Source: Nitrosopumilaceae archaeon (GTDB lineage: Archaea; Thermoproteota; Nitrososphaeria; Nitrososphaerales; Nitrosopumilaceae). Taken from it: DNA of 59,436 bases. Positions 2,525 through 25,387 of this stretch are shown here, in pieces (the stretch's first letter is position 1; each line of letters opens with the position of its first letter). Made by a program: the position numbers and the translations under genes. The notes below the pieces were generated by a model that saw nothing but the letters and a program-made list of their open reading frames with translations, did no database searches and was not told the DNA's origin. The DNA lies in contig JASHNR010000036.1 of the NCBI GenBank assembly GCA_030041535.1, forward strand, positions 1 to 59,436. The letters run 5' to 3'.

Positions 2525-4592
2525 TTTATCTGAAATGCTCCGTGCTACTTTTAGAAGAGATATTGTACCAAAGATTGCTTGCTTTGCTCTGATTGTAATG
2601 TTGTTTGCTTCGTCATTTAGCATGCCGTCATATGAACAATCTTACCAATCAACAGACTGTTCAGCCCCGCTAACTACTACTATCCAGACTACCTATAACG
2701 GTCCTGTAGTGCTAGATGCGTATTGGGTGGATCAAGGCACCAACGTGAACCTTTCAGGTAATTCGACTAGTGGTAGTAACGTAGTCAAAAAGGAGATTGG
2801 GCCAGGGGAAGGAGCTGAAGTCTTTGCTGTTGTCCTAACCAACGTAGGTAATCTTCCAATTAATGCAATAACTGGATTTTTGAATCTGCCAGCTGGGTTT
2901 ACTCCGACTGGGGAAAGTAAGATACCTCAACTTCTCCAGAATTACAATCCTGCATCATCGGAGGCAAATAACTATGCACTGGGTAGCTACTACGGAACCG
3001 TTCAACCTACAGACACATTCATCTTGTACTTTAATGTAAATGTTTTACCGACTGCAGTGGTTGGAACACATTCTACTAATCTTGTAGTTGATTACCAACT
3101 GTATGAAAGTGCGGGAGTTGCCGCATTGACTCAGCATTGTACTTCGGCATTACTTGAAGTCCCGCTCGTTCTTCCTGGTAAAGTAATCATGGACGCCACA
3201 ACCGTCACAAACTCCATAGCTCCAGCGCAAGCGGATCCTATTAGCATTGATATTATAAACAAGGGTTCAGCTCCAGCAACCGGAGTCGTAGCGACTATTA
3301 CAAATCTTGGTCAAAAAGGAAATTCTGGTTCATCATCATCTACCAGTACTCTTACACTGTCATCTACTACAACCAATATTGTCAATCTCGGGGCTACTCA
3401 GTTCAACTTGGGCGTTATACCAGCTAATGGTTCTGCCCAGCTAAATACCACCGTATTTCCTGCCACTTCAGCAGCGGGTCAAACACAGGACGTATCAATA
3501 TCTGTCACATATGAAAATGCATGGGGCAAACAGATAACCACCGACCTGAATACTGGTCTAGTTGTTTCTCCTATACCTCCGCAATCACTAAGTCTTTCAT
3601 ATTCTGGTGGTAATCAATCTTCTCTCATTCCTGCAGGAAACATCGCGCCTTTGGATTTTGTCGTATCAAATAACGGTACAAATGATGCCCAAAACCTAGT
3701 GGTCACACTTGTGCCAGTAAATACTTCTTCTTCTTCTGTTTCTATTGTAGGGCAATCTACATGGAATATTCCAAATCTGGCACCAGGCCAACAACAAGCG
3801 TTAAACACTAGTGTATACGCTGCAACTACCTTGCTTGATACGCCAACATCGTTTACTTTGACTGCAAATTATATATCTCAAGGACAGACAGAAACTAATT
3901 CACTTACACTAGGCGCGTTTGTGGTTGGCAATATACAATTAGAACTATATGGTTTGTCAGTAAACTATGTCGGAAATACGCCAAACATAGCAGGCAGTCT
4001 ATTAAATCAAGGAAGTACAACTGGATTGTATACTACAGTACAGCTTTACAAATCTCCAATATTGCAAGACATAAGGGAGGCAAGAATGGCAAATGCAACT
4101 GGTAATGGTACTGAAAACCACGGCGGAGGAGGCGGCTACAGCGGTGGCGGTGGCGGCGGAGGAGGCGGCTACAGCGGTGGCGGTGGCGGCGGAGGATCTT
4201 CTGCTATGGCACCACAGTTTTTGGGCGACCTAACTCCAGATTCACCCATACCATTTAGTATTCCTCTTAGTGGCATAAACTCTCTCAAGCCAGGATCCTA
4301 TCCTGTATCATTCAAGGTTGTATATGCCGATGACCTAAAGAATCCACATACATTAATCATGAATGCAACAATATCTGTAGCAAAAGCACCGCGTACAAAT
4401 ACTGGGCATGAACAAGGCTCCATCCTTGATATGATCCCAATTCCTCTACCAATGCTAGTAGGAATTATCATAGCAGCTATTGCAGGTGTAATTGTGGTAA
4501 GGAAAATCAAGGCGAAAAAACGAAAAATGAAGATGCTTACAGGAAGCGAAACTGATATAGTGGCAGCACTAGACAGTTCTGACAAAAAGTAA
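2511..4592 (+). CDS. Large exported CARDB/NEW3-like protein of the ABC operon
   Basis: About 693 aa. A signal peptide (hydrophobic run ACFALIVMLFASSFS near residues 24-38) is followed by several Ig-like beta repeats rich in N, T and S of the CARDB/NEW3 kind (motifs such as NVGNLPINAITG and NKGSAPATGVVATI), a glycine-rich stretch near residue 540, and a C-terminal transmembrane helix (MLVGIIIAAIAGVIVV) with a strongly basic tail. The start at ATG 2511 is chosen so that the signal peptide is close to the N-terminus. It sits between the ATPase and the permease, 2 bp from the latter, so it is probably the extracellular partner of that complex; its ligand is unknown. Confidence 0.75.
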   Translation: MSQTSLSEMLRATFRRDIVPKIACFALIVMLFASSFSMPSYEQSYQSTDCSAPLTTTIQTTYNGPVVLDAYWVDQGTNVNLSGNSTSGSNVVKKEIGPGEGAEVFAVVLTNVGNLPINAITGFLNLPAGFTPTGESKIPQLLQNYNPASSEANNYALGSYYGTVQPTDTFILYFNVNVLPTAVVGTHSTNLVVDYQLYESAGVAALTQHCTSALLEVPLVLPGKVIMDATTVTNSIAPAQADPISIDIINKGSAPATGVVATITNLGQKGNSGSSSSTSTLTLSSTTTNIVNLGATQFNLGVIPANGSAQLNTTVFPATSAAGQTQDVSISVTYENAWGKQITTDLNTGLVVSPIPPQSLSLSYSGGNQSSLIPAGNIAPLDFVVSNNGTNDAQNLVVTLVPVNTSSSSVSIVGQSTWNIPNLAPGQQQALNTSVYAATTLLDTPTSFTLTANYISQGQTETNSLTLGAFVVGNIQLELYGLSVNYVGNTPNIAGSLLNQGSTTGLYTTVQLYKSPILQDIREARMANATGNGTENHGGGGGYSGGGGGGGGGYSGGGGGGGSSAMAPQFLGDLTPDSPIPFSIPLSGINSLKPGSYPVSFKVVYADDLKNPHTLIMNATISVAKAPRTNTGHEQGSILDMIPIPLPMLVGIIIAAIAGVIVVRKIKAKKRKMKMLTGSETDIVAALDSSDKK
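4122..4196 (+). repeat. 33-bp coding tandem repeat (glycine-rich linker)
   Basis: About 2.3 copies of a 33-bp unit (one begins at 4125, the next at 4158) that encode GGGGYSGGGGG repeats in the exported protein of the ABC operon. The stretch is far more GC-rich than its surroundings. It encodes a flexible linker between the extracellular beta domains and the domain before the membrane anchor and is a likely site of length variation. Confidence 0.85.
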
Positions 4593-4594
4593 CC

Positions 4595-5830
4595 ATGCAC
4601 CCTGGAGATATCTTTTCCTTATCATTTGATGCATTGATAGACCGAAAAGTCAGGACTGTACTGACAGTGTTGATGGTAGTTCTAGGTAGCAGTTTGGTTG
4701 TAGTACTCAATGGACTAAGTGCAGGCCAATCAGCATTTTTAGAAAGCCAATTTAGTGCATTGGCCGCAAATATAATTTATGTAGGTTCAGGACAGCATTC
4801 CTACCATGGTTCATCGTCCACGGTCTCAATCACAATCAATAATGCTGTATTGAGTAAGATAAGTACGCTACCATATATAGAATCCGTGACTCCAGAGTAT
4901 TCGGGATCTGTTGAAGTTGATACTGGGGGAGAGACTCAACATGTTACAGTAACAGCGATGGATCCCACAAAACTCACTGTGATTCTGCCAAATCTTCAGT
5001 ATGTTAACGGCTCTACTGTAAACCCAAATAATAGGGCATCTGCGCTAGTTGGAGACACAATAGCAAATCCTCCTGGAGCAACATCACCGTTTGTTGTTCT
5101 AGGACAAACAATCAAACTCACATATTCATATACAGCTACTACTGGCAAGTCCGCAACAGAAGTCCAAAATTACATCGTATCTGGAATAATGCAACCATCT
5201 GGAAATTCGAGAATTGATAGCTCGATTATAATTAGTTTGGCTGCAGGTAACCAGTTATTGCATAAATCCACAAAATATGATCAGCTAATTGTGGCTGCAG
5301 ACTCGTCTGATTATGTTACTACTGTACAACAGGAGCTAACAACTCTGTATGGCCCAACCCTTGGTGTGACAACCCCGTCAGCCATAATGGCAGTCACACA
5401 AAAGGCATCAAGTGGTAATGCTGCCTTTACCCTAATGGTGGGAATAATTGCACTTGTAGTGGGTGCTGTTGGAATTGTAACGACACTTTACAACTCTGTG
5501 ACAGAAAGAATTCGTGAGATAGGTACAATGAAGGCAATCGGAGCGCAGAATATTGATATTCTTGAGCTATTCATAGTGGAAGCCGCATTGATAGGCATCA
5601 TTGGAGCTTCTTTAGGATTGATAATTGGTATGGCCGCAGGTTATGTACTGAGTATATTTACCACTACCAATATACAGGGTTCAGGAGACGTTCATATTCC
5701 GCCAATCTATATTCCAACTGATCTTCTAAAGGTCTGGGTTCTCTCAGTTACCTTAAGCTTGGCAGCTGGAATATACCCAGCTTGGAAGGCATCGCGACTT
5801 TCCCCTATGGTAGCATTAAGAAGAGAATAA
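4595..5830 (+). CDS. ABC transporter permease, MacB/FtsX family
   Basis: A 411-aa permease with the standard MacB layout: an N-terminal transmembrane helix (VLTVLMVVLGSSLVVVLNGL, residues 21-40), a large extracytoplasmic MacB-PCD-like domain to about residue 270, then the FtsX domain with three helices (near 278-300, 325-350 and 380-400) and the conserved stretch ERIREIGTMKAIGAQ. It ends with SRLSPMVALRRE, typical for the family. It starts 2 bp after the exported protein and completes the three-gene operon. The substrate, or whether it moves one at all, cannot be read from sequence. Confidence 0.88.
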   Translation: MHPGDIFSLSFDALIDRKVRTVLTVLMVVLGSSLVVVLNGLSAGQSAFLESQFSALAANIIYVGSGQHSYHGSSSTVSITINNAVLSKISTLPYIESVTPEYSGSVEVDTGGETQHVTVTAMDPTKLTVILPNLQYVNGSTVNPNNRASALVGDTIANPPGATSPFVVLGQTIKLTYSYTATTGKSATEVQNYIVSGIMQPSGNSRIDSSIIISLAAGNQLLHKSTKYDQLIVAADSSDYVTTVQQELTTLYGPTLGVTTPSAIMAVTQKASSGNAAFTLMVGIIALVVGAVGIVTTLYNSVTERIREIGTMKAIGAQNIDILELFIVEAALIGIIGASLGLIIGMAAGYVLSIFTTTNIQGSGDVHIPPIYIPTDLLKVWVLSVTLSLAAGIYPAWKASRLSPMVALRRE

Positions 5831-6466
5831 ACTGTTTGAAGAAATTTAAAAATTCATAAGCCTATAGCAGTCAAGCTAAAGACATCAAGTAATCTTTTTG
5901 GCAGTTACAATTTTGGAACTCATGTAAGAAAATCTAAAAAGGATACTGTTGGGTTTTTCTAGTTGCTTTCTAAAAAATAGATAAACGCATTAAAAAAATG
6001 TCATGTTACATTGTAGACTAAACAGTATGTTTAATCTTAGTCATATCATGCAGTCTAGAAATTATGGTATAAAATTTGATTCCATTGTGGAATAATTCGA
6101 CAAAAAGACTATTGTCTCAACGCATGAAGAAGAAGCAGATGGCGAGACTAACGTGTATGAAATTTTGTTTGTCTGCATCCATCATACCGTCCCTTAAATA
6201 CAATAAATACGTAAATTGATCAATGCCTTGTGTAAGCGCAGATAACTAATCTGCGTGACCCTGCAGAAACTAGTGAGTGAAAGAGGTACTTTGGTACTGA
6301 TTCATTGGGAAGTGATTTCCCCCTGTTCTGCGTAAAGGGTCACGCCAGACATCTTAAAAATCACAACAAATTCTTGCAAGTTACTGATAATACAAATCAA
6401 TGAAACCCACTACGATTTTAATATGTCAGGGTTAATGATCATGGTGACATAATATGGCCCTGCCTC
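5831..6466. other. Long gene-free stretch with a decayed frame and a structured element
   Basis: 636 bp between the ABC permease and a convergent small gene. A frame from ATG 6027 to TAA 6197 would encode 56 residues but is broken by TAA at 6093; the two halves read like protein (KFDSIVE, then FDKKTIVSTHEEEADGETN), so it may be a decayed small gene. TTAAATA boxes lie at 6194-6200 and AATAAATA nearby at about 6202-6209. The structured element 6237-6345 is described separately. Confidence 0.4.
6237..6345 (+). ncRNA. Candidate structured RNA with nested long stem
   Basis: A 5' hairpin pairs CGCAGAT (6237-6243) with ATCTGCG (6249-6255). Next, GCGTGACCCT (6253-6262) pairs perfectly with AGGGTCACGC (6336-6345), and GCAGAA (6263-6268) with TTCTGC (6326-6331), giving 16 pairs interrupted only by a GTAA bulge. 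Inside are two further hairpins: AGTGAA/TTCATT enclosing GGTAC-TTTG-GTACT, and GGGAA/TTCCC. The 5' hairpin and the long stem share three bases, so they may exchange. TTAAATA at 6194-6200 could be the promoter. The structure is visible; that it is transcribed, and on which strand, is inference. I do not recognise a known family. Confidence 0.45.
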
Positions 6467-6802
6467 CTAAGAGCTTAAAATTGTAATTCCTGTGATTTTT
6501 TTGACATCTTCACGATTCATTCCGCTTGCAGCCAAAAATATTGCCATCTTTATTGCATCTTGTCCGCGTTCTGATATCTTCAAGAGGTTGACTGTGCCAA
6601 GCTCTTTTACAATGATGTCTACATCTGGGGCTGTCGCCTTTCTCAAGTTTTCTGCATCTGATGTAACTTCTTGCTTTTTGATGTTAAGCAGAGAATCTAT
6701 TCTATGAAGATCCATTTTTTTCAGCTGGTCTTCCAAGTCCTTCATATCTGTAAATTCTATTGTAATTTCTCCACATGATAGATTGATTTTTACTTTGGCC
6801 AT
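6467..6802 (-). CDS. Conserved-looking small hypothetical protein
   Basis: A 111-aa soluble protein starting at ATG 6802 (MAKVKINLSCGEITIEF). The first 45 residues look like a small alpha/beta element with an acidic helix (MKDLEDQLKKMDLHRID). A charged linker follows, and the C-terminal half reads like a small helical bundle (ISERGQDAIKMAIFLAASG, then NREDVKKITGI). No catalytic motif or metal site is evident. It is a single gene, convergent with the structured element. I do not recognise the family. Confidence 0.55.
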   Translation of the reverse strand: MAKVKINLSCGEITIEFTDMKDLEDQLKKMDLHRIDSLLNIKKQEVTSDAENLRKATAPDVDIIVKELGTVNLLKISERGQDAIKMAIFLAASGMNREDVKKITGITILSS

Positions 6803-7071
6803 AAGTCTACAAGTTCATACTTGAAACGCATTACTGAGTAATTATCTTTTTTCTAAGTTGGTATAACAAGACGTTAAACACACCAAAAATATGCAGTAAT
6901 TCTATTTGTTATATGGCATAAAAATTTTTACATTTTGATTGTCATAATACTGTTTCATCTTGTACGAGATGATGCACGAACTCTTTTCTATATGGTAAAG
7001 TGTGATTCAAAGAATCAATCTGGTTGCTTGAGGAATGAATGAATACTTTTGATCAGCAATTACAGATCCTG

Positions 7072-7470
7072 TCATCCACCAAAGCCAGAGTTTCCAACAA
7101 AAGGAACGCTCCACGGGGTAGTGTATGGCTGGGTTATGTCAATTCCTTGGTCTGTTGTAACTCGTACCTCAGTGAGGTCACTACCTTCAGGTGGAGAGAG
7201 TATAATTCTGTCCCCTGGATTGAGAATGGGAATTATGTCAGGTTTTGCGGTTCCACCATAGTTAACCGTAACATTAGTGAGCGCATCCATTCCAGTGTTC
7301 TTGATGGTGACGTGAGTCTCTGTACCCATTTCCTCCTTAACGAGAATAGGGTTAACTGAGATATCATATTTTTGAGAGGGTGGTAATACAGGAAGAAAAC
7401 TGAACACCAAAAATATGATAATTGTAGCAAGGATTCCGCCAATCACTATTGTAAGTATTGGTTTTTTCAA
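7072..7470 (-). CDS. Membrane-anchored CARDB-like protein
   Basis: A 132-aa protein with an N-terminal signal anchor (ILTIVIGGILATIIIFLVF, residues 5-23) and one extracytoplasmic beta-sandwich domain with the motif HVTIKNTGMDALTNVTVNY, typical of CARDB/NEW3 Ig-like domains. The C-terminus is rich in P, T and G. It is divergent from the J-domain gene; the shared 226-bp promoter region contains two CCTATAGG palindromes. The role is probably structural or adhesive outside the membrane. Confidence 0.6.
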   Translation of the reverse strand: MKKPILTIVIGGILATIIIFLVFSFLPVLPPSQKYDISVNPILVKEEMGTETHVTIKNTGMDALTNVTVNYGGTAKPDIIPILNPGDRIILSPPEGSDLTEVRVTTDQGIDITQPYTTPWSVPFVGNSGFGG

Positions 7471-7520
7471 CTAATAGTAAATTGATTACTAAATATTTCA
7501 ATGATACTATGATAATTTTG

Positions 7521-7566
7521 CCCTATAGGATGGTGTTGGATTGAACGACTTCTTACACCTATAGGG
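7521..7566. promoter_or_regulatory. Pair of CCTATAGG palindromes in a divergent promoter region
   Basis: The 8-bp palindrome CCTATAGG occurs at 7522-7529 and again at 7558-7565, 36 bp apart. As a pair they are also an inverted repeat (CCCTATAG at 7521-7528, CTATAGGG at 7559-7566). They lie between the divergent CARDB-like and J-domain genes and are followed by a T-rich run (7578-7585). Two operator sites for a dimeric regulator is one reading; a hairpin with T-tract is the other. Confidence 0.4.
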
Positions 7567-7696
7567 TTAATTGCAGTCTTTTTTTGCACGCCTGCCTGAA
7601 ATGTGGGCATAATTAAATCTTGATTGAATTTATTTTTCAATTAGAACAAAAAAATGAAATTAAACTTTTTTAAAATAGTCTAACAAATATTTTCCA

Positions 7697-8263
7697 TTGA
7701 ATAGCTGTACGTGCTATCGTCTACTTGGCCTGGAGAAAGGAGCATCCGTGCGGGAGATAAAAGATGCATATAGAAAGATGGCTCTAAAGTATCATCCCGA
7801 CAAAAGCACCTCAAAACAAAATGATGAAAAATTTAAGTTAATAAACGAGGCATATCAGATCCTTCGCACAGATCACGTTCGTTGTATTGATGAAAATCTA
7901 AATAATCAAAAACCTAATGATGGAATTTCCAACGTGAATGGCCTTGGCTCCAAAATTCCCTATTGGGATGAACTCAATCCAAATAAAATTCTCAAAGAGG
8001 ATTGGAGTAGATATGCTAAATATGCAGAAAAAGCATATCAGGACTTTTGCAAATATGAGGAGGAGATGTGGACTTACTCTGAAAAAATGGTAAAGCGCAC
8101 AACTTCAACGCTTATACCTCTGGTTGCTACGCAATACACTCGTATTCCTTTTCTTTTTGTCTCGCAAGTTTATACACCTATTCTAAAAAAAGGGCAGCGT
8201 ACTGGAGTACGTCTAAAAAATCGACTAAGACTATTAAACAAGAATTGTATTGATGAAAAATGA
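7697..8263 (+). CDS. J-domain (DnaJ-like) co-chaperone
   Basis: A 188-aa protein whose first 65 residues are a J domain: [19 protein letters not shown], then the invariant HPD in KYHPDK, then a final helix ([12 protein letters not shown]). It would stimulate the ATPase of an Hsp70 (DnaK). The glycine/phenylalanine region, zinc-binding domain and C-terminal substrate domains of full DnaJ are missing; instead there are about 120 residues rich in aromatic and charged residues of unknown role. The start is TTG 7697; no ATG lies in frame before the domain. It stands alone, with no dnaK or grpE nearby. Confidence 0.85.
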
Positions 8264-8483
8264 TGCAAAATTGATTTTAGAATAATTCCGTACTCTTTCC
8301 TTCTTGGTCCATATGTGATGACAAACATGGTTCATCATGAAAAGAAATAAAGAATATTGACAAATCTTTCTTTTTGAAAATGTAATCTGTTTAAAAATGA
8401 TTAATATCAAAACCTATATTCTTAATTAAAATGATTTATAAAAATAAAAAGAATGTAGTCTTTTTAGACTCCATTAGTTTATC

Positions 8484-9341
8484 CTATCTACGTCGTGCTG
8501 TTGTCCAGATTCCTATGCCGCTTAAGACTCCAGCTACTACCATTCCAACTCCCCATCCCACACTTTGAAGTGGACCTGAAGGATTGTCAGAATCGTCATA
8601 CCCTACTTGTGAAGTCGATGAAGCCTCGCTTGGTTGTGCTGGTGCTGATTGTGTACTAGATGGTGTACTAGATGGTGTACTAGATGGTGTCGAAGACATA
8701 TTTGCTGGTGCATTATATGATGATCCTAGAGGAATGCCACCTTGCTGTCCTTGTCCTGCTTGCTGAGCAAGTTGATTGGCTCCTTGTTGTTGTCGTGAAG
8801 CAAAGGAACTACCAGATGGTGTGTTCATGCTTGATGAATTATTGGACATTCCAGACATGCTGCTACCAGATGAAGACATTCCAGACATGCTGCTACCAGA
8901 TGACATGTTCATACTTGGAGCGGTACTTCCAGACGAACTAGAAGCTCCAGCTGCAACAATTACTTGACCTGTCATCCATGGATGAACTTGGCAAAAGTAG
9001 TTGTATGTGCCAGGATTATTGAAGGTAAATGAAAAATCCTTTCCAGATGCAATCAAACTACTATCGAAGATAGTACCGGTCTGATTGTCTGATGGATTAC
9101 CGCTTGTCACAGTATGGCTGACCTTGTCATTGTTTTGCCATGTTACGGTTGTACCTGGTGCTACAGTGATAACATCTTGGTCAAAACAGTTCTTTGTTTG
9201 TGAACAGTTTGGACTCGAGCCTGCGCCGGCTGAAATGTTTACTGTTGTTCCAGATTCTTGTGCAAAAGCTGAGGGAGCTATTGCAAGAATCGCAACTAGG
9301 GTCAATACACCAAATAACGCGTTTATTGGTTTTGACATCAT
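8484..9341 (-). CDS. Blue copper protein (plastocyanin-like) with Met/Ser-rich linker and C-terminal anchor
   Basis: A 285-aa exported cupredoxin. A signal peptide (ALFGVLTLVAILAIAPSAFA) is followed by one plastocyanin-like domain with a complete type-1 copper site: His76, Cys117, His120 and Met123 (in YFCQVHPWM). Cys46 and Cys52 may form a disulfide. Then comes a long low-complexity stretch with MSGMSSSGSSMSGM repeats, a Q/G-rich part and STPS repeats, and a C-terminal helix (VGMVVAGVLSGIGIWTTA) with RRR. Such proteins are thought to carry electrons outside the membrane in ammonia-oxidising archaea. The Met-rich part may bind extra copper. The start could be either of the two adjacent ATGs. 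Confidence 0.88.
   Translation of the reverse strand: MMSKPINALFGVLTLVAILAIAPSAFAQESGTTVNISAGAGSSPNCSQTKNCFDQDVITVAPGTTVTWQNNDKVSHTVTSGNPSDNQTGTIFDSSLIASGKDFSFTFNNPGTYNYFCQVHPWMTGQVIVAAGASSSSGSTAPSMNMSSGSSMSGMSSSGSSMSGMSNNSSSMNTPSGSSFASRQQQGANQLAQQAGQGQQGGIPLGSSYNAPANMSSTPSSTPSSTPSSTQSAPAQPSEASSTSQVGYDDSDNPSGPLQSVGWGVGMVVAGVLSGIGIWTTARRR
8652..8905 (-). repeat. Short tandem repeats coding the cupredoxin linker
   Basis: Inside the cupredoxin gene, a 12-bp unit (AGATGGTGTACT on the plus strand) is repeated three times near 8657-8692, encoding STPS repeats, and a roughly 27-bp unit beginning ATTCCAGACATGCTGC is repeated at about 8848 and 8879, encoding the MSGM/SSGSS repeats. Both are typical slippage-prone linker repeats. 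Confidence 0.7.
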
Positions 9342-9681
9342 ACCCAGATACCGACATAATCAATTAATAAATTCTATGAATTGGTGTATCTGATATTGTT
9401 GATGTTTGATGTCTATAAGAGGTTGGTTGTAGAAAATTAAATAAAAAGTAGCATCTATGTTCAAGATCTTGCAAAATATTGCATACTGGATTATCTGTAG
9501 GGACAAGCGTTTCATGTAAATTGATGAGGAAAATCAAGACAATCGCCAAAAATGTATGGAAATCTGGATTCTATTCCAATTTCTGTGTTAAGATCTTCAA
9601 GAACTCTGGTTTTCTTTGAACATCTCACATATTTTGTTCCAAAATCTGTATCAATAAATACAAGTAAAAAGTAATTCTTTT
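9342..9681. other. Gene-free stretch upstream of the cupredoxin gene
   Basis: 340 bp between the divergent cupredoxin gene and a small zinc-protein gene. Frames here are short and look non-coding. It must contain the promoters of both flanking genes, but I cannot single out a convincing box A. No tRNA or strong hairpin seen. Confidence 0.4.
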
Positions 9682-9822
9682 ATGACAAGCACTAAATGTG
9701 TCGTATGCGGAATAGGGTTTTTTTCTGCTACTGGCTCAGACAAATGTTCTAAATGTACAGGAAAGGAAATGCAAGGAACCGTAGAAAGCCATGATTCTTG
9801 TGGTTGTGGACATCACCACTAG
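9682..9822 (+). CDS. Small zinc-ribbon-like protein with CGCGHHH tail
   Basis: A 46-aa protein (ATG 9682 to TAG). It carries two CxxC knuckles (CVVC at residues 6-9, CSKC at 22-25) separated by 12 residues and ends in SCGCGHHH, a second possible metal site. The spacing fits a treble-clef or zinc-ribbon-like fold. Upstream sequence is AT-rich and the ATG follows directly after TTCTTTT. It may bind zinc or, given the copper proteins nearby, another metal; this is inference. Confidence 0.65.
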   Translation: MTSTKCVVCGIGFFSATGSDKCSKCTGKEMQGTVESHDSCGCGHHH

Positions 9823-9981
9823 AACTAATTTTTTAACGTCATAGTTTTTCTATTAGAATTCTTTGCGAAATTATTCTACGTGTTCTTATTATTGACGACG
9901 GTCATAACGTGATGTAATCGTACCCTGCTGACTAGTTTGATAATCAATTTCTTAATATTGCCATTTTGAGTCATGTGATTT

Positions 9982-11052
9982 GTGAAAGCTCTGGTTTATG
10001 AAGAGTATGCACCAGACGATGACTATGCAAAGATTCTGAAAATCAAGGAAGTACCTGATCCTAAACCAAAACCAAACGAAGTTGTTTTCAAAGTAAAGGT
10101 CGCAGGATTAAATCATGATGATATTTGGGGAATGAGAGGAAAACCAATCAAGATCCCCATGCCACATATTTCAGGAACTGATGCCGCGGGAGAAGTTGTT
10201 GCAGTGGGAGACGATGTGACTACAATTAAGGTTGGAGATAGAGTTGTATCACATGGTAACATGTCATGCCGAATCTGTATGGCATGCACTGAAGGTCGTG
10301 AATATGATTGCCAATACAGAAAAGTCTGGGGATTCCAAACAGGGCCTCTGTGGGGAGGATACTGCGAATATGCTCACCTACCAGAAGTAAACGTTGTAAA
10401 AATTCCAGAAAATATAAGCTATGAGGAGGCTGCAGGGTCCTCGATGGTCATGATGACTTCATGGCATATGCTAGTGGGCAGGGCAAAAATCAAACCGGGA
10501 CAAACAGTACTCGTAATGGGAGGTACTTCTGGGATGGGAACATTTGGAATCCAGATTGCAAAGCTATACAGTTGTGATGTCATTGCTACCGCAAGTCCCA
10601 ACAAGCTTGAAGAATGCATAAAACTTGGAGCAGATTTTGCAATAGATCACAGAAAGGATGACTGGCACAAAGAAGTCTTTGCAATTACAAAAGACATTGC
10701 AAAAAAGAAGGGAACCAATCCTGGAGTGGATGTTATCTTTGAACATATTGGAGGGTCTCATTGGAACAAGGAATTGACACTACTAAAATATGGAGCAACT
10801 CTAGTTACAACAGGGGCAACAACTGGATATGATGTACAGACTGATCTCAGGCACATATTTTTCAAAGGCATAAATGTCTTGGGCTCTACGCAGGGAACAC
10901 GCGCAGAACTAGAAGATGGACTGTATTGGATGTCGCAAGGGAAGATAAAAGCAATAATTGATTCAATCTATACCTTTGAAAATGCTGTAGAGGCGCATAC
11001 CAAGATGCTAAAAGGCGCATTTATTGGTAAAATTTTGATGAAACCAAATTAG
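9982..11052 (+). CDS. Zinc-binding MDR-family alcohol dehydrogenase / quinone oxidoreductase-like enzyme
   Basis: A 356-aa medium-chain dehydrogenase/reductase. The N-terminal GroES-like domain has HISGTDAAGEVVAVG and a structural zinc lobe CRICMACTEGREYDC (CxxCxxCx7C). The Rossmann domain starts at GQTVLVMGGTSGMGTFGIQ. At the place of the catalytic-zinc cysteine the protein has LNHDDIW, as in the NHxDLW subgroup, so a classical catalytic zinc is unlikely. It probably reduces or oxidises an aldehyde, alcohol or enoyl substrate with NAD(P)H; the substrate is unknown. Start is GTG 9982. Single gene. Confidence 0.85.
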   Translation: MKALVYEEYAPDDDYAKILKIKEVPDPKPKPNEVVFKVKVAGLNHDDIWGMRGKPIKIPMPHISGTDAAGEVVAVGDDVTTIKVGDRVVSHGNMSCRICMACTEGREYDCQYRKVWGFQTGPLWGGYCEYAHLPEVNVVKIPENISYEEAAGSSMVMMTSWHMLVGRAKIKPGQTVLVMGGTSGMGTFGIQIAKLYSCDVIATASPNKLEECIKLGADFAIDHRKDDWHKEVFAITKDIAKKKGTNPGVDVIFEHIGGSHWNKELTLLKYGATLVTTGATTGYDVQTDLRHIFFKGINVLGSTQGTRAELEDGLYWMSQGKIKAIIDSIYTFENAVEAHTKMLKGAFIGKILMKPN

Positions 11053-11198
11053 GTTTTGTCATCTACCTTTCAAGATTAACACATTTTCTATAATCCACTT
11101 GTAGAAATTCAAAAAAGAATTTGATCAATTTTACAAGCTCGTTAATTGATACTCATAGAAAATATGAAAACATATACCTATGATCTTATCATTGTAAA

Positions 11199-11528
11199 AT
11201 GTTCTTGATCTTACTGAGTATCTGGGGATGCATGCCAGAGCTTTCGCAAGATTGTGTTGACATGAGTAATGCTGCCTCTACATACTTGGGAATAATAGCA
11301 GGCGCGATAATAGGCGGCATAGTAAGTTGGTGGATTTATAACAGGCAGAAGAAGACCTCTGACTCGCAAGACTATATTTTGCATAGGATTGAAGAGTTGG
11401 AGGAGAACCACGACGCAATACTGAAAAAACTAGCAGATTTTGATGATAAACACGCATCAACTCTTGACGCAATGAATGAATTAAAAGGAAAAATTGACTC
11501 GCTTATCCTCTCCGATGATGAATCCTAA
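11199..11528 (+). CDS. Small membrane protein with coiled-coil tail
   Basis: About 109 aa from ATG 11199. One clear transmembrane helix (YLGIIAGAIIGGIVSWWIY, near residues 29-47) is followed by a cytoplasmic helical region with heptad-like spacing (ILHRIEELEENHDAILKKL) and an acidic end. A shorter start at ATG 11232 or 11262 is possible because the first 20 residues are poorly conserved-looking. No enzyme motif. The role is unknown. Confidence 0.5.
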   Translation: MFLILLSIWGCMPELSQDCVDMSNAASTYLGIIAGAIIGGIVSWWIYNRQKKTSDSQDYILHRIEELEENHDAILKKLADFDDKHASTLDAMNELKGKIDSLILSDDES

Positions 11529-13754: not shown

Positions 13755-13985
13755 GTGAATGAAGCATACATTCTGCTAAATGTAGATTATAAAAAACAAA
13801 ACAACATAATAGAACAAGCAAAAAAGCTTCCCACAATAAAATCCGTAAAAACTACTTATGGAATATATGATATTATAATCATACTCGAATCAAATAACAT
13901 GCAAGAAATTAAACAAACAATAGATGTAGACTTGCATAATATAGACGGTATAAACAATCTCACTTCGCTTATTTCTATTAACTAA
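13755..13985 (+). CDS. Standalone Lrp/AsnC-type ligand-binding (RAM) domain protein
   Basis: A 76-aa protein that covers only the effector-binding domain of Lrp/AsnC regulators: beta (AYILLNVDY), helix, beta (IKSVKTTYGIYDIIIILES), helix, beta (INNLTSLISI). There is no DNA-binding half. Such single-domain proteins form oligomers that bind amino acids or other small ligands. Start is GTG 13755, because ATG 13751 is out of frame and stops at once. The stop is 1 bp before the start of the flavoprotein gene, so the two are surely co-transcribed and the domain may sense a redox-related metabolite (inference). Confidence 0.8.
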   Translation: MNEAYILLNVDYKKQNNIIEQAKKLPTIKSVKTTYGIYDIIIILESNNMQEIKQTIDVDLHNIDGINNLTSLISIN

Positions 13986-22265: not shown

Positions 22266-22292
22266 TTGTTATCATCTTCTAGGCGTAAAAGA

Positions 22293-22317
22293 GGTGCTGT
22301 ACAGTTTGAGGGACATG
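22293..22317 (+). repeat. Left terminal inverted repeat of the element
   Basis: 25 bp, exact reverse complement of 25335-25359. It is preceded by the GTAAAAGA target duplication. It lies 2 bp before the peptidase ATG, so it may also hold part of that gene's promoter or leader. Confidence 0.93.
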
Positions 22318-22319
22318 AG

Positions 22320-23246
22320 ATGACTTTTTCTTCGTGTAAATATAGGGACATAGATCCATTCAAGGATCGTTTTATTAGGTACCGAAATATAGGAAAACCA
22401 GTGACATACCTAGTTGGTGCAAAATGTACCGATGGAATTGTAATTGTTAGTGATAGCAGGCTAATAGCAGAATATGATGTTGAAACTGGAAACAAAATAC
22501 TGCAACTTGACGATAATATAGTAATAGGTGCAGCAGGAGGTACAAGATTTTTTAAAAAATTCCTAAATCAACTTAATGATAGCCTGAAAGAAAAGCCACC
22601 AAAATCAGTAAATGAGACCATAACAACAGCAGAAGATATTATTTTTACATTGTATGAAAGATATGGAAAAAGAGCAAGGGGAGAGAGTATAGATTGTTTT
22701 ATTGCAATTAGTGATATTTGGAAAAAATACATGATTTATACGAACAACGTAAAGTTATTTGCATTGGATAAAGAAGGATCAGCAGTTCCGATCGATGGAA
22801 TAAAGGCATTAGGACATGCAGAGCCATATGGTGCAATGTTTCTCAAAATTTTATGGAATAAATCGTACTCCATGAGACAAACAGCAGAGTTGGTAAAGTT
22901 TGTGATAGATACAGTATATAGTCTAGGTCTCGATGTTACAGTAGATCACAGGTTGCAATATTTTTGCATACCGTATGAAGGAGAACCAGATTTTATGCCA
23001 TTTGAAGATATGGAAGTAATTAATGAGAATGTTAAAAAAATGATGGTAGTTTTTAATACAGCCATGAGTGACATTAGAGAAATGCAACATATAGAATCTT
23101 TGAAAGCGATCGATACGATGCATAATAAAAAACGCGGACGTATTAAAGAATATGACGATGTAGAAATTTATCCTGATGAATTATCTAAGAATAAATCTGA
23201 AAAACCATCTGGAAAAATATCTAAAAAGAAACGAACTATTTCTTAG
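22320..23246 (+). CDS. Proteasome-beta-like Ntn hydrolase carried by the element
   Basis: A 308-aa protein from ATG 22320 (the frame stays open 54 bp further upstream through the inverted repeat). Residues 28-230 resemble a 20S proteasome subunit: VTYLVGAKCTDGIVIVSDSR aligns with the N-terminal strand, with Thr29 at the place of catalytic Thr1, Asp at exactly position 17 counted from it, and Lys at 31 (usual Lys33). The strand IVIGAAGGTRFF also fits. The residue before the Thr is Val, not the usual Gly, so autocleavage is uncertain. A charged 80-residue tail rich in Lys follows. It is probably a self-compartmentalised or single peptidase; target unknown. Its 3' end overlaps the AbrB gene tail to tail. 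Confidence 0.75.
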   Translation: MTFSSCKYRDIDPFKDRFIRYRNIGKPVTYLVGAKCTDGIVIVSDSRLIAEYDVETGNKILQLDDNIVIGAAGGTRFFKKFLNQLNDSLKEKPPKSVNETITTAEDIIFTLYERYGKRARGESIDCFIAISDIWKKYMIYTNNVKLFALDKEGSAVPIDGIKALGHAEPYGAMFLKILWNKSYSMRQTAELVKFVIDTVYSLGLDVTVDHRLQYFCIPYEGEPDFMPFEDMEVINENVKKMMVVFNTAMSDIREMQHIESLKAIDTMHNKKRGRIKEYDDVEIYPDELSKNKSEKPSGKISKKKRTIS

Positions 23247-23400
23247 GTTTTAAAATCATTCTATCATCTTTGAAAACAACGTCTAATTCTTCACCTTCTT
23301 TCCAACCAGATTCTTTAATCTTCTCAGGAGGAATAACTACAACCCATTTGGCATACTCATCATTACCTACTTTACGTGACAGTTGTTTCTGTAATTTCAT
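23236..23400 (-). CDS. AbrB/SpoVT-type regulator of the element
   Basis: A 54-aa protein, ATG 23400 to TAG 23236. It has the swapped-hairpin AbrB layout: KLQKQLSRKVGNDEYAKWVV, IPPEKIKESGWKEGEELDV, then VFKDDRMILKPKK. Such proteins bind palindromic DNA as dimers and often serve as antitoxins or repressors. It is divergent from the transposase; the 94 bp between them contain three TTAGGTACCTAA palindromes. Its last 11 bp overlap the 3' end of the peptidase gene on the other strand. Confidence 0.8.
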   Translation of the reverse strand: MKLQKQLSRKVGNDEYAKWVVVIPPEKIKESGWKEGEELDVVFKDDRMILKPKK

Positions 23401-23431
23401 ATTATTATTTCGTAGTTCTAATACATAAGTG

Positions 23432-23486
23432 TTAGGTACCTATCATTACCTTAGGTACCTAACATTTATATACATTAGGTACCTAA
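23432..23486. promoter_or_regulatory. Three palindromic operators around the transposase promoter
   Basis: TTAGGTACCTA(T) at 23432-23443, TTAGGTACCTAA at 23451-23462 and TTAGGTACCTAA at 23475-23486. The last two are perfect 12-bp palindromes, the first has one mismatch. A box A, TTTATATA (23465-23472), lies between the second and third copy, and the transposase ATG at 23495 is at leaderless distance from it. A dimer bound to the second and third sites would block both promoter recognition and initiation. The AbrB-type protein encoded 30 bp away is the obvious candidate. Confidence 0.8.
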
Positions 23487-23494
23487 TACTATAC

Positions 23495-24610
23495 ATGACT
23501 GAACCAAATCATCGCGAAGAAAAAGGAAAACAAATCGCTTCCAGTCACGATGTTTTCAGAATTTCTGATCATCAATACAAGGTTCACTCTCAAACCACAA
23601 GCAAGCAATACGATGTAATAAGATCAGACAACGTATGGCGTTGTACGTGTCCTGACCACATTTACAGGCATATTTGCTGTAAACACATTCACGCAATAGA
23701 ATATTCAATCAAGATTAGAGAGGAAGTACGAAAACAGAATCAAGTTATCATAGAACCAATCACCGTTTCAGTCTGCCCACAATGCAAATCAGACAAGATA
23801 GTAAAGCATGGAATCAGGCATAACAAGTACGGTGACATTCAAAGATATTCTTGCAAGGACTGTCATAACAGATTCATAGTAAATCTAGGCTTTGAAAAGA
23901 TGGGTGCAACTCCACAATCAATTACCTCTGCAATGCAACTCTATTTCACAGGAGAATCTCTAAGAAGTGTTCAAAAGTTTCTCAAACTTCAAGGCGTAGA
24001 TGTATCCCATATGACGATCTATAACTGGATAACAAAATACACTGGATTGATGAAAGGATACCTAAGCAACATAACTCCACAGGTAGGAGATACTTGGAGA
24101 TCTGATGAATTATTTGTAAAAATCAGTGGCAACATGAAGTATCTTTACGCATTGATGGACGATGAAACACGCTTTTGGATTGCTTCACAAGTTGCAAACA
24201 CCAAATTCAAGGAAGATATTGGAAAACTATTCAGAGATGGAAAATCAATAGCACAAAAGAAACCCGAAGTTTTGATTACTGATGGTGCAAGGAATTTTCA
24301 TCAGGCTTACAGGAAGGAGTTTTGGGCAAAAGAAGTAAGCGAGAGAGCAATACACATTCAGCACATACACTTCAAACATGATATGAATAACAACAAGATG
24401 GAACGCCTAAATGGTGAATTTAGAGATAGAGAGAAAGTAATGAGAGGAATCAAAAAGGATGATTCAGTAATGTTTGATGGGTATCAGATGTATCATAACT
24501 TCATAAGACCACATATGGGACTAGATGGAAAGACGCCTGCGGAGAAATGCGGAATTAAGATTGAAGGTAATAACAAATGGTTAACGATAATTCAAAATGC
24601 CAGCCAATAG
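23495..24610 (+). CDS. IS6-like DDE transposase with SWIM zinc finger
   Basis: 372 aa from ATG 23495, which is a leaderless start after the TTTATATA box; a longer frame to 23429 runs through the operators and is rejected. Domain order: SWIM zinc finger (Cys50, Cys52, Cys62, His64), a C4 zinc ribbon (Cys94, Cys97, Cys120, Cys123), a helix-turn-helix near 140-180, and an RNase-H-fold core with DDE residues Asp204 (WRSDEL), Asp263 (ITDGARNF) and Glu303 (NNNKMERLNGEF). It ends with the family block YHNFIRPHMGLDGKTPAEKC. The DDE spacing and 8-bp duplication fit IS6. It moves the whole 3,067-bp element. Confidence 0.9.
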   Translation: MTEPNHREEKGKQIASSHDVFRISDHQYKVHSQTTSKQYDVIRSDNVWRCTCPDHIYRHICCKHIHAIEYSIKIREEVRKQNQVIIEPITVSVCPQCKSDKIVKHGIRHNKYGDIQRYSCKDCHNRFIVNLGFEKMGATPQSITSAMQLYFTGESLRSVQKFLKLQGVDVSHMTIYNWITKYTGLMKGYLSNITPQVGDTWRSDELFVKISGNMKYLYALMDDETRFWIASQVANTKFKEDIGKLFRDGKSIAQKKPEVLITDGARNFHQAYRKEFWAKEVSERAIHIQHIHFKHDMNNNKMERLNGEFRDREKVMRGIKKDDSVMFDGYQMYHNFIRPHMGLDGKTPAEKCGIKIEGNNKWLTIIQNASQ

Positions 24611-24649
24611 ACTAATAGAGTTTTAAAAGATCTTTATGTTGACTACAAT

Positions 24650-25333
24650 ATGGGATATCAAACTGCTAGAGAAATGGTAATTGCTATAATCAGTGGAGGT
24701 TTTGTCGTTACATTTCAAGCTGCGGCACATCAATTATTTGGATATTTTCCCAACATACCTTCAGAAATTACAAAAGAGTATTCAGGTATAGCAGTTGTAT
24801 TATTTGGTTTCAGTTGTGCCATGATATTAGTTATAAGAAAAAACAAATCTCGTTATGAACAAAAATGGGAAGAAAATCGTAAATCCATAGTGAAATTCAT
24901 GCTATCTGCTGTGGATGAAGATTTTATCGCCATGAAGCCAATTATTGAAAAATTGCAATCAAGGGGATTCGATTTTAACAATGAAAATGAGACAGTTACT
25001 CTGGAGGATGTTAATGAGATTAATCCTAATGCATTCAAAGACAGATTTGATAAATTGCCAATAATTCAAAATGTCTTAGGTTTTATCACACATGAACAAT
25101 ATTGCACTTTGTATAACTACATGAAAGATAGTTCATTATTCATTGATTATCTTTGTAAGCAGAATTATAGAAAAGAACTTTTAGAATCAAGAGCAGAGGA
25201 AGCGAAGAAAATTATAGAATTTTTTGGCTATGAAGAAAATGACCATATAGGAATAAAAGAATGGAAAAAACGCCTTTCACAGATTGATCAGAGTATAGGC
25301 ATGTCCCGACCTTTACAAGGAGAAAAACTGTAG
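24650..25333 (+). CDS. Membrane protein of unknown function carried by the element
   Basis: A 227-aa protein with two N-terminal transmembrane helices (about residues 8-30, MVIAIISGGFVVTFQAAAHQ, and 44-64, SGIAVVLFGFSCAMILVI) and a charged, mostly helical cytoplasmic part of about 160 residues with a repeated acidic/basic pattern. I see no catalytic motif. It follows the transposase by 39 bp on the same strand and its stop is 1 bp before the right inverted repeat. It could anchor or partner the Ntn peptidase, or be an independent passenger; nothing decides this. Confidence 0.65.
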   Translation: MGYQTAREMVIAIISGGFVVTFQAAAHQLFGYFPNIPSEITKEYSGIAVVLFGFSCAMILVIRKNKSRYEQKWEENRKSIVKFMLSAVDEDFIAMKPIIEKLQSRGFDFNNENETVTLEDVNEINPNAFKDRFDKLPIIQNVLGFITHEQYCTLYNYMKDSSLFIDYLCKQNYRKELLESRAEEAKKIIEFFGYEENDHIGIKEWKKRLSQIDQSIGMSRPLQGEKL

Positions 25334-25334
25334 G

Positions 25335-25359
25335 CATGTCCCTCAAACTGTACAGCACC
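25335..25359 (-). repeat. Right terminal inverted repeat of the element
   Basis: 25 bp, exact reverse complement of 22293-22317, followed by GTAAAAGA. A subterminal direct repeat AGGCATGTCCC occurs at 25297-25307 and again at 25332-25342 across the inner edge of this end, which may be a second transposase contact or a trace of slippage. Confidence 0.93.
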
Positions 25360-25387
25360 GTAAAAGATCATATTTTTCAATGATCAA

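Follow-up and report, generated by a model that had tools for sequence, protein, structure and literature searches.

A cargo-carrying IS6-type transposon with a proteasome-like peptidase from a Nitrosopumilaceae archaeon, and its relatives in ammonia-oxidising archaea

Background

In contig JASHNR010000036.1 of a Nitrosopumilaceae archaeon (assembly GCA_030041535.1; positions 1 to 59,436, forward strand; this stretch of 59,436 nucleotides is here termed the window), a gene for a proteasome-beta-like peptidase is located between the terminal inverted repeats of an IS6-type insertion sequence (IS). The locus raises the question of whether such a peptidase travels as part of a mobile unit and what role it could have there. 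An original prediction, made from the sequence alone, proposed a recently moved IS6-like element carrying the peptidase, an AbrB repressor and a membrane protein as cargo. The comparative analysis presented here establishes, at the level of sequence, an intact element, a family to which it belongs, the recurrence of the peptidase as cargo and the stacking of neighbouring elements. The explanation considered probable is that of a complete cargo-carrying IS6-type transposon, in which AbrB would co-repress transposase and peptidase and the latter would be an active Thr1 peptidase acting upon derepression.

Results and discussion

Element boundaries and insertion site

An intact IS6-type element of 3,067 bp was delimited at window positions 22293–25359. 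Its terminal inverted repeats (TIRs) are perfect over 25 bp (22293–22317 and 25335–25359; none expected in shuffled sequences) and represent the sole matches in the window when up to three mismatches are allowed (again none expected). Both are embedded in a 59-bp imperfect inverted repeat of 81 % identity (left end, 22293–22351, + strand; right end, 25301–25359, − strand), in which each end harbours a second GGGACAT box. The exact 8-bp target site duplication (TSD) GTAAAAGA is present at 22285–22292 and 25360–25367, resulting in the layout GTAAAAGA + GGTGCTGTACAGTTTGAGGGACATG ... CATGTCCCTCAAACTGTACAGCACC + GTAAAAGA, and a scan of the 6-kb region for terminal repeats with 8-bp duplications returned only the 3,067-bp unit. 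The predicted 25-bp repeats, duplication and unit size were thus all confirmed, except that the true ends extend beyond 25 bp. The four predicted genes (peptidase, AbrB, IS6 transposase and membrane protein) were likewise borne out, and the peptidase, AbrB and membrane protein genes being joined in one IS6-type unit is supported.

The joined window flanks were searched for in 37 congeners. Congener G105 contains continuous DNA with a single GTAAAAGA (flanks 83 % identical), i.e., an empty site, and the 3,067-bp unit therefore entered as a whole. The predicted recent movement is supported by this clean empty site in one congener, which gives no exact age. At the same insertion point, G133 harbours a different element of 1,849 bp (TSD CTGAATGA), G337 a different element of 3,871 bp (TSD GCAAATGA), and G401 a 27-bp end remnant beside ATAAAAGA; all four congeners agree to the base in the position of the site, which precedes TCATATTTTTC or a variant of it. 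The element of G133 shares its last 60 bp with that of the window (92 %), and its left end differs and the peptidase is missing.

Repeated occupancy of one intergenic site (G133, G337, with the remnant in G401) might suggest an old, fixed chromosomal block with incidental terminal repeats. This reading was rejected as having a negligible probability, being ruled out by the empty site with one GTAAAAGA in G105 and by occupants that differ in ends, cargo and TSD variants. Rather than the same gene order without repeats at a fixed locus, the congeners contain different elements and cargo at the window's site, and each of the other peptidase elements has an unrelated insertion site and a duplication of its own. 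Two routes could lead to the shared insertion point: a strong preference for this target, or insertion into the duplication of an element already in residence, which then decayed. The second is favoured, because G133 displays an old end, 8 bp and then another element. The intergenic insertion point (window and loci L228, L056, L230 and L179) precedes TCATATTTTTCAATGATC, and the adjacent GATCATATTTTTCAATGATC forms an inverted repeat.

The 25-bp end, searched for in 300 genomes of the class, was present in the window's genome only, and its exact sequence was absent from viral contigs. The same genome (G000) also contains a decayed transposase remnant of the same IS6-type family (contig C37:97403–97626; loci L002 and L050).

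A family of cargo-carrying elements

Since the peptidase query alone had given no match in genome contigs, a transposase profile was used for the family search. It yielded 52 loci in public genomes, mostly of Nitrosopumilales, but also of Methanoperedens and a few others; relatives of the transposase were detected in 145 of 400 Nitrososphaeria genomes. Based on GG-tipped terminal repeats and 8-bp duplications, 37 elements (window included) could be delimited, ranging from 1,970 to 6,533 bp (median 3,270 bp). The TIR tip is GGTGCTGT in the window element and GGTTCTGT or similar in most relatives (GG tip, CTGT motif). A TSD consensus like TGTTTTAG was observed, for which the reference word was derived from the data and the p-value was not used as proof.

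The repeats do not merely bound a transposase: every one of the 37 elements contains at least 850 bp of further DNA (0.85–5.4 kb, median 2.15 kb). At least 300 bp lie on both sides of the transposase in 32 elements, and at least one other open reading frame (ORF) of 60 or more amino acids is present in 36. The shortest element, L059, is devoid of a convincing cargo ORF. Among the fetched loci, none of the delimited elements had a second copy of near-identical sequence.

Cargo is varied and comprises a type IIG restriction-modification (R-M) system (L042:3344–7916; PADLOC, 1.4e-164), a type II D12 methyltransferase with an HNH protein (L078), a DUF5131 protein together with a PDC-M41A-like methyltransferase and a DNA methylase-HNH fusion (L088:2088–8285), a class III nucleotide cyclase weakly resembling PycC (L075:4658–8456), GIY-YIG (L176), a ParA-like protein (L174) and GNAT pieces (L090), next to many unknown and membrane proteins. 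A small toxin-antitoxin-like gene pair in L066 and L138 matched no significant family. These elements constitute a large, apparently undescribed family of cargo-carrying IS6-type elements widespread in ammonia-oxidising archaea; a literature search, with many subscription papers outside its reach, found no published description of such a family.

Two loci stand apart. In L065 (positions 1911 and 4954), an element lies between CGATTAAA and TTTAATCG, which are inverted copies of the spacer and suggest an inversion or an assembly fault. Locus L069 (BMAH01000059.1, titled Gammaproteobacteria) encodes an archaeal-type transposase (63 % identical), pointing to mis-binning or transfer.

The proteasome-like peptidase and its recurrence

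The peptidase gene (22401–23246, + strand) encodes a proteasome-beta-like threonine peptidase of 281 amino acids (PF00227, 3.4e-10), which begins with Met-Thr from a GTG codon and contains equivalents of T1, D17, K33 and G47. GTG 22401 is very likely the start and the longer ORF from ATG 22320 unlikely, because homologues begin with Met-Thr at the catalytic Thr and a conserved operator is located just upstream; the originally predicted start, 2 bp past the left repeat at ATG 22320, is thus probably incorrect. With this start the protein would have no propeptide. Met, Leu or Val (ATG, TTG, GTG) directly precedes the catalytic Thr in nearly all homologues. The equivalents of Thr1, Asp17, Lys33 and Gly47 are invariant in 10 aligned Nitrososphaeria homologues (window included), the other members being 19–29 % identical to the window protein, and a profile of these ten matched archaeal proteasome beta in PDB with 1.9e-17, the alignment starting from the mature Thr1. 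By the NCBI cut-off the protein is not a canonical archaeal proteasome beta subunit (TIGR03634, 24 versus 224 bits). The weak structural model (pLDDT 41.5) shows the C-terminal extension as a long helix. The peptidase is likely proteolytically active. In genome G323 (family f3), seven matches to the peptidase profile were found on several contigs, at least four of them clearly above canonical subunits.

Five peptidase elements were fully delimited: that of the window and those in L042 (7925–11218, TSD TGTTTTAG), L143 (5131–9110, TSD CCCAAGCG), L160 (5194–10271, TSD GCCTGGCG) and L165 (5201–8397, TSD ATTTTAAA). A further one is probable in L055 (3604–5560, TAAAAGGG, weak repeat), and two more, L043 (= L084) and L051 (= L098), have the peptidase next to the transposase and have lost ends. 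Locus L098 belongs to Ca. Nitrosotenuis chungbukensis MY2, an ammonia-oxidising archaeon. The peptidase was detected neither in viral contigs (single-protein and profile searches) nor in the plasmids searched.

In the peptidase tree, element-borne and chromosomal proteins are mixed, with at least five changes of state on long branches, which implies repeated exchange between chromosome and element; standalone peptidase copies exist as well. Such interspersion would also be expected if host genes for proteasome homologues were captured repeatedly by chance, as pure passengers without function for the element. We regard this as rather unlikely, given that the capture recurred, that the catalytic residues were kept and that the transposon's own operator was repeatedly placed before the peptidase.

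The AbrB repressor and its predicted operators

The AbrB/MazE-type repressor (54 amino acids; 23236–23400, − strand; PF04014, 2.1e-6) is encoded by a gene that points towards the peptidase gene and away from the transposase gene; the AbrB of L042 is 77 % identical. Three predicted TTAGGTACCTA(A/T) operators (starting at 23432, 23451 and 23475) surround the TATA-like TTTATATA (23465–23472) within 23432–23486. Among elements with this MKLQK-type AbrB (five delimited elements plus L051), all six (window, L042, L077, L160, L171 and L051) have the TAGGNNCCTA palindrome in triplicate at the promoter of the transposase gene, whereas 0.01–0.06 would be expected per whole element (window, L042, L077, L160, L171). 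The operator centre varies (TA, TG, CG, CA, AA) and the palindrome is kept.

Each of the four peptidase elements that encode MKLQK-type AbrB has an additional operator, about 22–31 bp 5' of the Met-Thr codons. It is perfect in L051 and L160; in the window it is represented by TTAGGTACCGAA (22375–22386), a predicted copy 5' of the peptidase start that is found in the same place in L042. L077 and L171, which encode MKLQK-type AbrB and no peptidase, lack this extra operator. As it precedes the peptidase in four of four cases, we strongly infer that AbrB co-represses transposase and peptidase.

The original prediction counted AbrB among the cargo. Judging by gene content and operator positions, it is instead part of the core circuit of the transposon, since it also occurs in elements without peptidase and its predicted operators lie at the transposase promoter. 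Visual inspection picked out a small AbrB- or ribbon-helix-helix (RHH)-like gene in 23 elements or loci; 11 of these match Pfam MazE/AbrB significantly, and single members match RHH families. A different AbrB subtype (L071, L159, L148, L176 and L165) is accompanied by ATCTACGTAGAT, ATCCACGTGGAT or ATCCGTACGGAT palindromes in the matching place 5' of the transposase. It looks as if repressors and operators had diversified here as a series of pairs.

Stacking of elements

In 96 transposase loci, 21 junctions were found at which exactly 8 bp separate the facing ends of two elements; spacings of 5, 6, 7, 9, 10 and 11 bp were counted 0, 0, 2, 0, 0 and 3 times, respectively. Abutting elements have exactly one 8-bp copy in common (e.g., L042:7917–7924; L139:11446–11453 and 13941–13948), and in L042 and L139 the word of the junction is also present at the outer ends. 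Stacked neighbours are different elements, because their transposases, where both are comparable, are 42–82 % identical. The junction in the bacterial locus L103 may be due to chance.

In L042 the R-M element (3344–7916) directly adjoins the peptidase element (7925–11218); the peptidase element in genome G054 forms a tandem with the R-M element. Together with the R-M system, the methyltransferase with HNH protein, the methylase-HNH fusion with its PDC-M41A match and the weakly PycC-like cyclase of sister elements, this tandem is in line with the peptidase serving defence or addiction and thereby earning the element its upkeep in the host, as sister R-M cargo would. However, neither the peptidase nor the membrane protein matched PADLOC models at E 0.01, a search of phage records gave no match to the peptidase, and many other cargo genes are without recognisable function; a defence role is accordingly possible, if less than probable.

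A bolder proposal, which joins the co-repressed protease with the stacking, holds that proteolysis by the family's own protease belongs to its life cycle as a fixed stage, e.g., clearing repressor, transposase or host barriers after entry, and that transposases recognise the 8-bp junction at the end of a resident relative and stack new elements there. At present this proposal appears doubtful.

Proposed explanation

In the explanation considered probable, i.e., the complete transposon with co-repressed peptidase, AbrB would very probably bind at two places, namely at the transposase promoter with its three palindromes and at the single palindrome next to the start of the peptidase, such that both genes are repressed together and released together. 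Removal of Met would probably expose Thr1 and generate an active N-terminal threonine hydrolase, presumably forming oligomers as other proteasome homologues do. The final steps are the least certain: once repression is lifted (on entering a new cell, under stress or after AbrB is lost), the peptidase might turn over host or element proteins, thereby favouring establishment or host survival.

Several observations weigh against this explanation. The full-length element is single-copy in its own genome, and no transposition has been observed. The canonical Ser129 position of the peptidase is occupied by His, no substrate or partner is known, and AlphaFold models, from the single sequence and with three sequences, were too poor for use (pLDDT 41.5), so that the fold assignment rests on sequence profiles. 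Moreover, one arm of the operator on the peptidase side deviates from the palindrome in the window and in L042, and no operator copy precedes the peptidase of L165.

Transposase and membrane protein

The transposase (371 amino acids; 23495–24610, + strand) consists of a SWIM-like zinc motif (weak match, 0.0012), a zinc ribbon and an IS6/IS240 DDE domain (PF13610, 1.2e-13; NF033587, 2.3e-31; NF050000, 1e-8). It passes the cut-off of PF13610 and reaches 109 bits with NF033587 (cut-off 125), which classifies it, by profile score, as IS6-like outside the curated core. The remaining gene (24650–25333, + strand) codes for a protein with two predicted transmembrane helices and a soluble tail of about 165 amino acids; it belongs to no significant family and has weak homologues in G292, G175 and G185.

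Comparison with known systems

With IS6 elements (IS26, IS240, IS257; PMC7986276) the window element has in common the IS6-type DDE transposase, GG-tipped ends with a cTGT motif and 8-bp duplications. In ordinary IS6 members, a transposase of 213–254 amino acids fills nearly the whole IS (PMC7986276), whereas that of the window has 371 amino acids with N-terminal SWIM motif and zinc ribbon; elements of the window type have longer ends and 0.85–5.4 kb of other internal DNA, and no single transposase ORF spans nearly the entire element. As in passenger-carrying IS (tIS), passenger genes are located between inverted repeats and moved as one unit. ISDsp3 is the single IS6 passenger carrier named by Varani et al. 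2021 (PMC7986276); in contrast to it, the elements described here form a whole family that combines self-repression with diverse cargo and stacking. Composite transposons differ in that here one transposase and one pair of ends are present, and not two flanking IS copies.

The integrated elements of thaumarchaea (PMC6563490) share the host group and include IS-like transposons, which, however, possess one or two genes; according to Krupovic et al. 2019 (PMC6563490), composite transposons with passengers had not been detected in archaea. The present elements fill this gap with small passenger-carrying transposons in thaumarchaea (cf. PMC6563490), and their pile-up could give rise to gene islands in nitrifiers that are abundant worldwide. 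Both the pile-up of transposons at one 8-bp target and the service of a protease to a mobile element become testable.

The proteasome homologues WPH, ACC, PHI and Anbu (PMC8665760) resemble the window-type peptidases in Thr1/Asp17/Lys33/Gly47, the lack of a propeptide and a predicted C-terminal helix. Fuchs et al. 2021 reported that, proteasome beta and HslV apart, the homologues have no propeptide, described predicted C-terminal coiled coils in WPH, ACC and some PHI, and found no genomic context suggestive of a function (PMC8665760). The elements described here provide a genomic context for proteasome homologues of unknown function (cf. PMC8665760): unlike WPH, ACC, PHI and Anbu, the window-type peptidases are transposon-borne and apparently under control of the transposon.

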